The notes beneath the pieces are model-generated. The model was not told where the DNA came from. It was given only the letters and a program-made list of their open reading frames with translations, and searched no databases. A stretch of DNA of 34,763 bases from Pseudomonadota bacterium. Lineage in GTDB: Bacteria; Pseudomonadota; Alphaproteobacteria; SMXQ01. Each line of letters begins with the position of its first letter. Position 1 is the first letter of the stretch. Position numbers and translations under genes: made by a program. The DNA is taken from contig JACZQV010000007.1 in the NCBI GenBank assembly GCA_022545545.1, forward strand, positions 1-34,763, given 5' to 3'. Shown piece after piece: positions 1-16,548 of this stretch.

Positions 1-236
1 AGTGTCCGGACATCCACCCTCCGCAGCGGCAGTGCCGCTGCTGCGGAGGACGGGTCGTCAAGCGGCGCCGACGCCCTCCGGTGGCCGCGAAAAACGACCC
101 TTCGGGCGGCCTTGCGGGCCCTTACGCTCACCTCGCGCGGCCCTTGTGATGCGCCCCCATCACGGCGGACCACGCTCCGGGCCTGAAGAACCCGCAAGGC
201 CGTCAGATGTGCCATCCTCCTATGAAAGTAAGTACT
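1..236 (+). repeat. Repeat element copy A (left end beyond the window)
   Basis: From the palindrome TGTCCGGACA at 3-12 to the terminal AGTACT at 231-236 this matches most of the complete copy at 12824-13090 in the same orientation. Shared landmarks are GTCAAGCGGC near 57, the GGCCGCGAAAA arm near 83, the arms CGGCCTTGCGGG (107-118) and CCCGCAAGGCCG (191-202), and a GTGATG/CATCAC stem (146-151, 158-163). The right end, TATGAAAGTAAGTACT, fills 221-236 and stops two bases before the ychF start codon. Compared with the other copy it has an extra stretch at about 14-55 that forms a strong hairpin (18-49). Open frames across it look like chance frames in GC-rich DNA. Confidence 0.85.
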
Positions 237-2148: not shown

Positions 2149-3243
2149 TCAACCCCTTCGCTCGGGATAGAGGGACAGGAGGCCAACCGCGGACGCCTCG
2201 CACACCCCGCGCTCGGTGATCAACGCGGTGATCAGGCGCGCCGGCGTTATGTCGAAGCCGTAATTGGCGGCGGCGCTGCCATCGGGCATCAGATCGACGC
2301 GCGCCACCGAGCCATCCTCGGCGCGCCCCGCGATCCCCGACACTTCCGCCGGATCGCGCTCCTCGATCGGGATGTCGGCGCCGTCGCTCATCGTCCAGTC
2401 GATGGTCGGCCCCGGCAAGGCGACGTAGAACGGCACGCCGTTGTCCTTCGCCGCCAGCGCCTTCAAGTAGGTGCCGATCTTATTGCAGACATCGCCCGCC
2501 CCGGTCGTGCGGTCGGTGCCGGTGATGCAGAGATCGACCTTTCCCCGCTGCATCAGATGCCCGCCGGCGCTATCGACGATCACCGTGTGGGGCACGCCGT
2601 GGCCGGCAAGCTCCCACGCCGTGAGGCGGGCGCCCTGATTGCGCGGCCGGGTCTCGTCGACCCAGACATGCACCGGGATCCCGGCGTCATGGGCCATGTA
2701 GATGGGCGCCAGCGCGGTACCGTAATCCACCGTCGCCAGCCATCCGGCGTTGCAATGGGTGAGGATGTTGACCGGCCCGTTGTCGCCTTTCTCCTCCGCT
2801 ACGGCACGGATCAGCGATAGCCCGTTGCCGCCGATGGCGCGGCAAATGGCTACGTCTTCGTCGGCGATCGCCGCCGCCCGGGCATAGGCGGCGTCGGCGC
2901 GGGCGCCTTGGGGAAGGTTTCTGACCGCCGCGGCCATCTCGTCCAGCGCCCAACCAAGGTTCACCGCCGTCGGCCGGGTCGCCATCAGGGTCTCGCACGC
3001 GCGATCGAGCGCATCGCCGGAAGCATCGGCGCGCAACGCCAGGCACACCCCGTAGGCCGCCGTCGCGCCGATCAGCGGCGCGCCGCGCACCTGCATCGCC
3101 GCGATCGCCCGCACCGCGTCCTCCAGGGTCCGAAGACGCACGGTCTCGAAGGCGAAGGGCAGCTTGGTCTGGTCGATGATCTCGACCGACCAGCCGTCAT
3201 CGCCAAGCCCGATGGTGCGAAGGTGTTTGCCCGCGACCAACAT
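2149..3243 (-). CDS. mtnA: S-methyl-5-thioribose-1-phosphate isomerase
   Basis: A 364-residue member of the eIF2B-like sugar-phosphate isomerase family. It converts methylthioribose-1-phosphate (aldose) to methylthioribulose-1-phosphate (ketose) in methionine salvage. Family signatures are [15 protein letters not shown] near 52-66, the active-site Cys segment [17 protein letters not shown] near 158-174, and the Asp-bearing [21 protein letters not shown] near 235-255. [13 protein letters not shown] matches the usual N-terminus, supporting the ATG at 3243. It lies 25 bases after mtnP and four bases before the aldolase, so the three are probably co-transcribed and the last two translationally coupled. 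Confidence 0.96.
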
Positions 3244-12823: not shown

Positions 12824-13090
12824 AGTACTTACTTTCATAGAAGGGTGCGACATATGATCGCTTTTCGCGGCCTCCGGGGTGGAAGCGTCGCGCCGGCGAT
12901 GTCCGGACATCGTCAAGCGGCGGTGACGCCCTCCGGTGGCCGCGAAAAGCGACCCTGTGGGCGGCCTTGCGGGCCCTTCGGACGTTGTCGCGCGGCCCTT
13001 GTGATGGACCGGCATCACGGCGGACCACGCTCCTAGCCGAAGAACCTGCAAGGCCGTCAGATGTGTCACCCTTCTATGAAAGTAAGTACT
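12824..13090 (+). repeat. Complete 267-bp repeat element with terminal inverted repeats (MITE-like)
   Basis: Both ends begin AGTACTTACTTTCATAGAAG when read inward. The first 24 bases are identical and about 31 of 34 match. Inside are: a 16-base perfect palindrome CGATGTCCGGACATCG (12897-12912) flanked by perfect 15-base inverted arms (12858-12872 and 12938-12952); a long stem with arms 12962-12981 and 13037-13056 (17 of 20 paired); and within that stem a GTGATG/CATCAC hairpin (13001-13006, 13013-13018). No target-site duplication is obvious, unless the self-complementary AGTACT at each end is itself the duplicated target. No transposase gene fits inside. It lies between divergent DUF1285 and rnpA. 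Confidence 0.88.
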
Positions 13091-13096
13091 GGATGC

Positions 13097-13123
13097 GTCA
13101 CCCTGCCGTGTAGAGTAGGTACT
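13097..13123 (+). repeat. Degenerate second right end of the repeat element, upstream of rnpA
   Basis: Seven bases after the complete element the sequence GTCACCCT...GAGTAGGTACT repeats the element's right end (GTCACCCTTCTATGAAAG, TAAGTACT) with several substitutions and one extra base. Its AGTAGGT part falls at the right distance to serve as the rnpA ribosome site. It may be the remnant of an older insertion or of the native site. Confidence 0.5.
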
Positions 13124-13128
13124 TAGCG

Positions 13129-13572
13129 ATGAACCAGGCTCTTGTCCGTCTCAAGCGGCGCGAAGAGTTTCTCCGGGTTGCCGGCGCCAGGCGCAAATGG
13201 GTGGCGCCTGGCTTGATTCTGCAGGCCAGGACCGCGGTGACGCCCGCGCGCGGCCCTCTGGGCAAGGGCGGCGCCACCGGGCCGGCGGCCATCGGCGAGG
13301 GCGTTCGCGTCGGTTTTACCGTTAGCCGCAAGGTCGGCAACGCCGTGGCCCGCAACCGGGCGCGCCGGCGGCTGCGCGCCGCCGCCGCCGAGGTCATGCC
13401 AAGACACGCCAAGGCGGCGCACGACTTCGTGGTTATCGGCCGGTCGGCGACACTCACCCGGCCCTATGCCGCCTTGGTCGGCGACCTCAAGACCGCGCTC
13501 AGGCGCCTCGGCGCCTTCCGCGACGGGCCGGAACGCGAGCGTGCGAGAGAAGTCAAGGTGGATCGCGGATGA
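13129..13572 (+). CDS. rnpA: Ribonuclease P protein component
   Basis: 147 residues, basic. With RNase P RNA it removes 5' leaders from tRNA precursors. The signature is [24 protein letters not shown] (the RNR motif, near 62-85; quoted core [15 protein letters not shown]), and the N-terminus [17 protein letters not shown] is normal. An inserted Gly/Pro-rich stretch at about 38-58 is larger than in E. coli but occurs in alphaproteobacteria. AGTAGGT nine bases before the ATG is the likely ribosome site. rpmH, which normally precedes rnpA, is not here; a repeat element occupies that place. The 3' end overlaps yidD by ATGA. Confidence 0.95.
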
Positions 13573-13913: not shown

Positions 13914-15833
13914 ATGAGCGACCAGCGCAACACCCTCCTCGCCATCGTCTTAGCCGTGGCCATCTTGTTCGCCTTCCAGACCTTTTACGTCAATCCCAAG
14001 GCGGAAAAGGAAAAGGCGCGCCAACAGGCCCTATCGGAGCAGACCGGCACTCCGGGCAGGGAACCGTCGGCGCCGTCGCGCGGCGGGCCGCGGGCGGACC
14101 GTCCGGGAGCGCCCGGGGCCGCGCCCGGGGCAAGCCCGTCCATTCCGACGGCGCCCGCCACGCCCCGGCTGTCCAGCGTCACGCCCGAGGCGCCGGGTCC
14201 CGGGGGGCGAGAGCGCCTCCGGGCGGAACGGCTCCGATCGACCTCCAGGGTGAGGATCGATTCGCCCCGGCTGAACGGTTCGATATCCCTGACCGGCGGC
14301 CGCGTCGACGATCTGACGCTGGTCGATTACCGCCAGGACATCGATGCCAAGAACGGGCAGATACGCCTGTTCTCTCCACCGGGTTCGGATTTTCCCTATT
14401 TCGTCCAGTTCGGCTGGGCGCCGTCGGAGCGGAAGGTCAAGGTGCCGGGCCCGGACACGCCGTGGCGGGCGGATATCAAGACGCTGACGCCGTCCCGGCC
14501 GGTGAAGCTGAGCTGGGACAACGGCGAGGGGCTCAGGTTCACCCGCACCTATGCGCTCGACGAATATTATATGTTCACGGTGACCCAGCGGGTCGAGAAC
14601 CGTTCCAAATCGTCGCTCACGCTATACCCCTATGGCTTCATTTCGCGCACCGGCACGCCCGAGACCCTTGGCTACTTCATCCTCCACGAAGGGCCGCTCG
14701 GCGTTTTCAACGGCACCCTCAAGGAGATCGACTACGACGATCTCAGGGACTCCGGGAAGATCGTCCAGAACACCCAGGGGGGATGGATCGGCATCACCGA
14801 CAAATACTGGCTCGCCGCCCTGGTGCCCGACCAAAAGCAAAGCGTGGAGACCAGGTTCGTCCATAGCGCCACCAATGATAACGAGAAGGACCAGAAGTAC
14901 CAAGTGGACTATCGCGGCCCCGGCCTGACCGTGAGGCCGGGCACGAACGCCGAAGTCGAAAGCCACTTCTTCGCCGGCGCCAAGGAGGTGAAGCTCCTCG
15001 ATGCCTATGCCGACTACGAATTCGCCGGTTTTCCCCTCGGCCTGAAGGATCCCGAGCTGCGGCGGCTCAAGGTCCAGCGCTTGGACCTGGCGATCGACTT
15101 CGGCTGGTACTTCTTCCTCACCAAGCCGTTCTTCTACGCCCTCGCCTACTTCCACGACCTCTTGGGCAATTTCGGCCTCGCCATCCTGTTGCTGACGGTC
15201 CTGGTCAAAATCCTGTTCTTCCCGCTCGCCAACAAATCCTACAGGGCCATGAGCAAGATGAAGATACTGCAGCCGGAGATGGTGAAGATCAAAGAGCGCT
15301 TCAAGGACGACAAGACGCGCATAAACCAGGAGATGATGGAGCTCTACAAGCGGGAAAAGGCCAATCCGGCTGCGGGCTGCGCGCCCATGATCATCCAGAT
15401 TCCGGTGTTCTTCTCGCTTTACAAGGTGTTGTTCGTTTCCATCGAAATGCGCCACGCGCCGTTCTATGGCTGGATCCATGACCTCTCCGCGCGCGATCCG
15501 ACGACCATATTCAACCTTTTCGGGTTAATCCCGTTCACCCCGCCGGATTTCCTCTTGCTCGGCGCCTGGCCGCTGATCATGGGGCTTTCCATGTTCCTGC
15601 AGATGAGGCTCAACCCGCAGCCGGCCGATCCGATACAGGCCAAGATCTTCATGTTCATGCCGATCATGTTCACCATCTTGCTGGCGCCCTTCCCGGCGGG
15701 TCTGGTGATCTACTGGGCATGGAACAACGTGCTGTCGATGGCCCAGCAATGGGTCATCATGAAGCGCTCAGGGGCCTTGCCGTCGAAGAAGAAGAAGACG
15801 ACGTCCCCGTCGAAATCCAAAGCCAGGACCTAG
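13914..15833 (+). CDS. yidC: Membrane protein insertase YidC (Oxa1 family)
   Basis: 639 residues, on the long side for the family. Residues 1-26 form the first membrane helix (TLLAIVLAVAILFAFQTFYV). A Pro/Gly/Ala/Arg-rich linker at about 40-105 accounts for the extra length. The periplasmic beta domain spans about 110-385. The five-helix Oxa1 core follows: FGLAILLLTVLVKILFFPLA, then KSYRAMSKMKILQPEM with its cytoplasmic coiled loop, CAPMIIQIPVFFSLYKVLF, and the last two helices. The C-terminus is Lys/Ser-rich. It inserts and folds inner membrane proteins with or without Sec. It is followed after seven bases by engB. Confidence 0.97.
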   Translation: MSDQRNTLLAIVLAVAILFAFQTFYVNPKAEKEKARQQALSEQTGTPGREPSAPSRGGPRADRPGAPGAAPGASPSIPTAPATPRLSSVTPEAPGPGGRERLRAERLRSTSRVRIDSPRLNGSISLTGGRVDDLTLVDYRQDIDAKNGQIRLFSPPGSDFPYFVQFGWAPSERKVKVPGPDTPWRADIKTLTPSRPVKLSWDNGEGLRFTRTYALDEYYMFTVTQRVENRSKSSLTLYPYGFISRTGTPETLGYFILHEGPLGVFNGTLKEIDYDDLRDSGKIVQNTQGGWIGITDKYWLAALVPDQKQSVETRFVHSATNDNEKDQKYQVDYRGPGLTVRPGTNAEVESHFFAGAKEVKLLDAYADYEFAGFPLGLKDPELRRLKVQRLDLAIDFGWYFFLTKPFFYALAYFHDLLGNFGLAILLLTVLVKILFFPLANKSYRAMSKMKILQPEMVKIKERFKDDKTRINQEMMELYKREKANPAAGCAPMIIQIPVFFSLYKVLFVSIEMRHAPFYGWIHDLSARDPTTIFNLFGLIPFTPPDFLLLGAWPLIMGLSMFLQMRLNPQPADPIQAKIFMFMPIMFTILLAPFPAGLVIYWAWNNVLSMAQQWVIMKRSGALPSKKKKTTSPSKSKART

Positions 15834-15840
15834 CCGGGCC

Positions 15841-16530
15841 GTGGGCGAGGTGGGCCGCGTCGAGAACCCGCCGGGCGAGGATAAGGACGACGGCGCCGAG
15901 CGCGATCCGGATTTCGCCCGCTGGCTGTTCGCCCAGCAATGCGCCTTCGTGACGGCCGCCGCCAAGCCCTATCAGCTGCCGGATCTGGAGCTGCCGGAAG
16001 TGGCCTTCGCGGGACGTTCCAATGTCGGTAAATCGAGCCTGATCAACGCGTTGACCGGACGCCGGACACTGGCGCGGACATCCCGGGCGCCGGGCCGCAC
16101 CCAGCAGATCAACTTCTTTGCCCTCGGCGGGCGGCTGGTCCTGGTCGACCTTCCCGGTTACGGTTACGCGCGCGTGGCCAGGACCAGGGTGCGGGCGTGG
16201 ACCCGGCTGGTCGAGGCCTACTTCCGGGGCCGGCCGAACCTGCGCCGCCTGTGCCTGCTGGTGGACGCGCGTCACGGGCTAAAGACGAGCGACGGCGCCG
16301 TCATGGCGATGCTGGACGAGGCGGCGGTGTCCTACCAGGTGATCCTGACCAAGGCCGACAAGGTCAAGCCCGAGATGCTTCTTGGCGTCGAGGAGAGTCT
16401 CGGCCGGGAGCTCTCGGCCCATGCGGCGGCACACCCCGACATCATCATTACCAGCGCGCGGAAGGGCGACGGGATCGAGGCCTTGCGCCGCGCCCTCGCG
16501 GCGCTGGCGAGGCCCGCCCGATTGGGCTAG
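15841..16530 (+). CDS. engB: Ribosome biogenesis GTP-binding protein YihA/EngB
   Basis: 229 residues from a GTG start seven bases after the yidC stop. G1 is [10 protein letters not shown] (near 60), G3 [11 protein letters not shown]4 LTKADKVK, and G5 SARKGDGI. It is a TrmE-Era-EngA-EngB-Septin class GTPase needed for 50S subunit assembly. The first 25 or so residues are a charged extension not needed for the fold, so a later start is possible. Its TAG stop shares its last two bases with the first two bases of a repeat-element end (16529). Confidence 0.95.
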
Positions 16531-16548
16531 TACTTACTTTCATAGAAG
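16529..16548 (+). repeat. Solitary repeat-element end between engB and argB
   Basis: AGTACTTACTTTCATAGAAG is identical to the first 20 bases of the complete element at 12824, with no partner end or internal element sequence next to it. Its first two bases are the last two of the engB stop codon, and its final GAAG, with the following AG, gives a GAAGAG ribosome site nine bases before the argB ATG at 16560. Confidence 0.85.

Follow-up and report, generated by a model that had tools for sequence, protein, structure and literature searches.

A two-arm folded core, rather than the end sequence, is common to probable MITE-like elements across Alphaproteobacteria

Introduction

Positions 12824 to 13090 of the window, by which we mean the whole stretch of 34,763 nucleotides analysed here, hold a 267-bp repeat with inverted ends and nested hairpins. 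An earlier note on this DNA had suggested that the structure of the repeat is maintained, as in a MITE or a structured RNA. The locus raises three questions: whether the repeat is dispersed and mobile, which of its parts is conserved, and what moves it.

Anatomy and fold of the focal element

The focal element, which defines family 1, consists of a terminal stem (P1) that carries the ends and of two structured arms enclosed by it. Its parts in the window are as follows.

12824..13090, + strand: complete 267-bp element of family 1 (from paired ends, fold and genome copies)
12824..12857, + strand: left strand of terminal stem P1, starting with the 17-nt end AGTACTTACTTTCATAG (31/34 against the right end; covarying pairs)
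12858..12952, + strand: arm A, a structured arm in sense orientation (model R2 match at 12857-12953, +, 51.1 bits)
12962..13056, - strand: arm B, which is arm A in the opposite orientation (model R2 match at 12960-13058, -, 47.9 bits)
13057..13090, + strand: right strand of terminal stem P1 (from pairing with the left end)

The inverted ends, in which 31 of 34 bases pair, the central 16-base palindrome (CGATGTCCGGACATCG at 12897-12912, perfect), its perfect 15-base arms (TCGCTTTTCGCGGCC / GGCCGCGAAAAGCGA) and a second domain with a 20-base stem (85%) around a GTGATG/CATCAC hairpin were all found as the earlier note had described them. The fold of the focal strand has a predicted energy of -172.5 kcal/mol, compared with -105.7 +/- 5.4 kcal/mol for shuffled sequences (z = -12.3), and none of 200 shuffles equals it. 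Neither the window nor any of 14 related loci has an Rfam match at gathering score. The literature searched holds no earlier account of this element set, which does not prove absence, and the earlier statement that no named family is known agrees with both searches.

Copies and variants of family 1 within one genus

BLAST searches of the source genome (G000; 2.75 Mb, 196 contigs) gave 112 matches to the element, which correspond to about 45 places, and the 17-nt end occurs 114 times with up to two mismatches, compared with 0 occurrences of a reversed-pattern control. A sister genome, G001, was identified from 28 matching stretches as MAG B40T1L10 (JADFJG01). Among the sampled genomes, family-1 ends are confined to the single genus of these two, and the exact 21-mer end has no further record besides G000 and G001 in the genome-contig collection searched. 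These and the other sampled genomes are drafts, and repeats break assemblies, so that many copies lie at contig ends.

Together, G000 and G001 yielded 47 distinct full copies with both ends. Most are 267-271 bp long; larger forms measure 299-307, 342-344, 379 and 421 bp, and small derivatives 45-169 bp. The larger forms contain additional hairpins within arm A. In copies of 299-421 bp (for example L097, 2479-2899), arm A grows stepwise, with hairpins inserted into hairpins, and identical arm-A inserts reappear among copies of both species. At L063 (6679-6735) and L035 (1482-1521), the 17-nt end is repeated in tandem, with periods of 20 bp and 23 bp, ahead of a family-1 copy. Not one family-1 copy falls inside a gene called by a simple, crude codon-usage caller, and by the orientation of their flanking genes the full copies are divided into 23 tandem, 17 divergent and 6 convergent.

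An alignment of 31 family-1 copies showed that 98.1% of the cells at predicted pairs do pair and that seven pairs vary on both sides. Pair 18/256 of stem P1, for example, is A-U in 14 copies and G-C in 14. The earlier note had drawn attention to a loop that differs completely between two copies (GACCGG/CGCCCC) above an intact stem; several such alleles are present among the 31 copies. It had also named two outcomes that would speak against a maintained structure, namely few copies in the genome and changes that fall equally in stems and loops. The first is contradicted by the roughly 45 places and the second by the proportion of cells still paired, and the covariation check that it had proposed showed that pairs in both P1 and the arms covary.

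Insertion mostly at TA dinucleotides

Besides the focal element, the window contains further traces of family 1, some of which can be compared with the sister genome.

1..236, + strand: second family-1 copy, ended by the contig start (87% over 55-236)
about 13-54: extra hairpin module of the second copy
107-203, - strand: arm B of the second copy (match to model R1, whose training included the window arms)
13091..13124, + strand: remnant of an older, decayed copy adjoining the focal element (the matching locus in G001 has a longer remnant)
15831..15832, no strand: empty site, the TA of a TAG stop codon at 15831-15833 (G001 holds a 421-bp family member there)
16529..16545, + strand: solo 17-nt end between two genes, with no counterpart in the sister genome (GGGCTAAAGTCC)

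The copy at 1-236 had been taken for a partial one. It does retain the second domain, as arm B, but base 1 is where the contig starts, and a biological truncation cannot be read from it.

Where they can be aligned, G000 and G001 are about 94% identical, and seven pairs of filled and empty sites were readable. TA lies at the junction in six of the seven empty sites (window 15831, the site opposite the solo end at 16529, which reads GGGCTAAAG, and L036, L042, L046 and L053), while L052 has no TA. Insertion is therefore polymorphic between the two sister species and occurs mostly at TA dinucleotides. The inserted length fits a 265-bp unit whose TA target was duplicated and equally a 267-bp unit without duplication; the transposed unit may be the 265 bp at 12825-13089 plus duplicated TA. 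At filled family-1 sites, 27 of 53 copies have CA in place of TA on one side, where the marginals predict 18.4 under independence, and given these CA flanks any TA duplication in family 1 is imperfect. Outside family 1, T...A is present on both flanks in 10-11 of the 14 elements listed. Twelve element ends supply the TAG stop codon of a neighbouring gene, as expected if the TA of a stop codon serves as a target and G is the next base of the element; the solo end at 16529..16545 likewise restores the TAG stop of the gene upstream.

Insertion at YY|RR without target duplication was our first reading. It was dropped, since TA is found at six of seven empty sites and a TA duplication accounts equally well for the net length. 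Two near-exact empty sites had suggested that a solo unit of 17 nt is itself mobile, but most solos retain a longer part of the element than these 17 nt, which makes truncation their simpler origin. In several gene calls the element end appeared to provide a start codon (ATGAAAGTAAGTACT, -15), which is probably a gene-caller artefact, as no obvious ribosome-binding site is present.

Synteny with the sister genome (window 12824-13129 compared with L120) stops exactly at the focal element, and rpmH precedes rnpA in G001, not in the window. Either the element mediated a rearrangement here, or short reads were misjoined at the repeat.

Taken together, the element shows several features of a MITE, namely small size with inverted ends, dispersed copies and insertion polymorphism. 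Copy number, insertion polymorphism, intergenic position and stem covariation support a MITE-like element whose structure is maintained, in keeping with the earlier view that it may be a MITE or a structured RNA.

A superfamily with shared arms and different ends

Relatives of the element lie well outside its genus. A distant BLAST match in G011, from another family of the class (75% over 123 bp), turned out to be a whole element with equal layout but other ends. Similarly, the genus itself contains a second repeat, family 2, which has the end AGAGCACTATCYGRCCAG and the same two-arm layout, and a search with it detected related elements in 18 of 289 sampled genomes. Those that can be delimited are mostly 261-274 bp long and combine a ~30-bp terminal stem with a pair of ~97-nt arms, of which arm B is homologous to arm A as its reverse complement. 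Between families, identity is 0.34 in the terminal stems (0.25 when shuffled) and 0.67 in the arm core.

Thirty arms were aligned by sequence. In this alignment 22 of 25 pairs have changed on both sides, and 90.4% of cells pair, compared with 70.7% after shuffling and at most 45.4% with slid pairings. The covariation score is 0.572, whereas slid pairings reach no more than 0.152. Conservation extends to unpaired positions, which are kept across genera: YAGG (columns 26-29) and RAC, with R at column 72 and both A (column 73) and C invariant. The arm model matches in 29 of 240 genomes of the class, which represent 26 of 203 alphaproteobacterial genera; copy numbers per genome are lower bounds, as at most 17 places were scored in each. 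At the loci examined, paired arms follow one another in the order + then -, about 8 nt apart. A one-armed member of the superfamily is located on a plasmid of Nitratireductor thuwali (L302, about 2437-2620), where part of it is annotated as a gene for a hypothetical protein. Agrobacterium sp. MA01 has an element on a plasmid as well (L301).

Matches of model R1 in the window are circular, because its training contained those arms. Model R2 was trained without family 1 and without G011, and therefore provides a non-circular test of membership. It recognises the focal arms, + then -, with 51.1 bits (E about 1e-10) and 47.9 bits (7e-10), by far the top scores in the window; scoring by sequence only gives 18.3 bits for arm A and 27.9 bits for arm B. 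The folded core, rather than the end sequence, is thus what elements across the class have in common.

Possible roles of the arms

We consider the element to be, probably, MITE-like, non-autonomous and TA-inserting, built around a conserved structured core and moved in trans by a putative DDE transposase. It is an inverted dimer, in which a terminal stem bearing the ends encloses two ~97-nt arms, + then -, and would insert at TA dinucleotides in the context YTAR. The ends would be the substrate of a DDE transposase, IS630-like or IS5/IS427-like, with a different transposase for every element lineage. The arms would be retained as strand-specific hairpins that work either at the level of single-stranded DNA, during transposition, or at that of RNA, in transcripts from either side. 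The latter is conceivable because any transcript entering the element first meets a sense-oriented arm. More tentatively, and as one possibility, the two-arm folded core may define a class-wide superfamily whose ends were replaced over evolution. Its members would then be structured hitchhikers that change their mover, with arms serving as strand-specific hairpins for a new factor of the host or of mobile elements.

The same covariation and the unpaired arm positions kept with it would also suit a structured RNA device that came first, as a bidirectional transcription barrier or 3'-end stabiliser, and then spread as a repeat, so that the arm fold would be its selected function. The + then - order, by which incoming transcripts meet the sense arm first, fits such a device, as does the excess of G-U over A-C at paired columns in the sense orientation of both arms (31:8 and 31:12), a count that is biased by the choice of structures with RNA parameters. 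However, no Rfam family matches, and copies lie between genes of all orientations rather than chiefly downstream of them, so we regard this origin as unlikely. The arms are on opposite strands, and a full-length RNA would therefore give a G-U excess in one arm only. As a lead, constraint may instead act on the two arms separately, each on its sense strand, either as single-stranded DNA or in transcripts from either side.

What moves the element

TA targeting is characteristic of IS630 and of IS5/IS427-type transposases, which is why the preferred reading, a MITE-like element moved in trans, places a DDE enzyme of this kind at the ends. Among the end sites listed in the G000 and G001 drafts, no inward pair of ends spans a gene as a parent transposon with family-1 ends would; MAGs often lose repeats. 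The ends of the L261 family resemble IS5-family termini in the cyanobacteria Nostoc and Stanieria, a weak similarity (E about 1). A match of L260 ends to a plasmid IS5 gene lies inside coding sequence and was taken as chance, plasmid matches to the ends of L259 and L267 yielded nothing, and three viral-contig matches to the 17-mer are unrelated sequence. An IS110 derivative is not supported, as the DEDD transposase (PF01548) has no match in G000 or G001. The Y2 transposase of IS91 (PF04986) gave no match in the carrier genus, and control sequences likewise gave none.

Y1 transposase genes, by comparison, are present in both species of the genus, and with the inverted doublet, the solo ends, the intergenic position and the clover-leaf fold they recall REPINs (PMC3116915). 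The element might accordingly be a giant REPIN, whose inverted REP-like halves a Y1 (RAYT/IS200-type) transposase would mobilise in single-stranded form, the solo ends being decayed singlets. The Y1 loci L205-L207 nevertheless have no 17-nt end within five mismatches and no similarity to the element in the flanks examined; only 11 of 29 carriers have a Y1 gene, and eight arm-rich genomes (G063, G066, G069, G089, G091, G115, G193 and G205) have no match to one. The REPIN pattern moreover lacks a TA target preference, and we judge this origin quite improbable. The Y1 transposase-like genes at L205, L206 and L207 encode about 313-326 aa; L206 and L207 are flanked by inverted copies of GGGGTCAAGTCTTGACAATTATCATTTT and form a separate mobile unit. 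In L205, short tandem repeats run within one reading frame at 1968-2564 (GPKMET...), and short units are arrayed in tandem at about 2780-3200 (G001).

A neutral palindrome, whose arms covary through hairpin repair or arm-to-arm gene conversion and have no function, could draw on the mosaic alleles among copies, on a symmetry that hairpin repair could renew and on P1 pair 18/256, which flips as a unit, but is highly improbable, as conversion would erase asymmetric features such as the internal-loop A at 73, R at 72 and YAGG at 26-29, all kept across genera, and as length is constant at 261-274 bp.

Comparison with known systems

The trans-mobilised element with a structured core that we favour can be set against several described groups of repeats. 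Tests of membership in RAYT/REPIN, IS110, Rfam and CIR spoke against all four. Compared with REPINs (PMC3116915), its half-units are ~133 nt long rather than the 20-40 nt of REPs, and it has no linked RAYT. CIR elements of Caulobacter and Brucella are ~110 bp long, are described without a terminal stem and have GANTC at the apical loop (PMC2229807). Like them, the focal element is intergenic and alphaproteobacterial and has two long hairpin arms; unlike them, by description alone, it is 267 bp long and has a 34-bp covarying terminal stem. The GANTC motif is absent from window 12824-13090. RIME and other rhizobial palindromic mosaic elements are likewise alphaproteobacterial and intergenic, with two large palindromes; RIME1, at 106 bp, differs in length. 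For the IS5 family (IS427-like), the likeness is confined to the weakly similar L261 ends, and the searches gave no IS of this kind that has the ends of family 1.

As a rule, it is their conserved ends that identify bacterial MITEs, whereas the interior is free to vary; between genera, the present set shows the reverse, with a conserved interior fold and differing ends. This makes it possible to test whether a structured core can have a function of its own in mobile DNA. It also accounts for a group of repeats found at many contig ends of alphaproteobacterial draft genomes, and the covariance models allow the superfamily to be annotated. The closest counterparts of the set in general form are the TA-targeting MITEs Correia/NEMIS, RUP and ERIC/RU-1, which are short, non-coding, intergenic and strongly folded and have inverted ends (PMC2229807). 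The focal element shares with them its non-coding nature, terminal inverted repeats, folding, intergenic position and insertion at TA, but is ~2x longer, encloses a pair of structured arms in opposite orientation within its terminal stem and belongs to a set in which the core rather than the ends is kept between genera.
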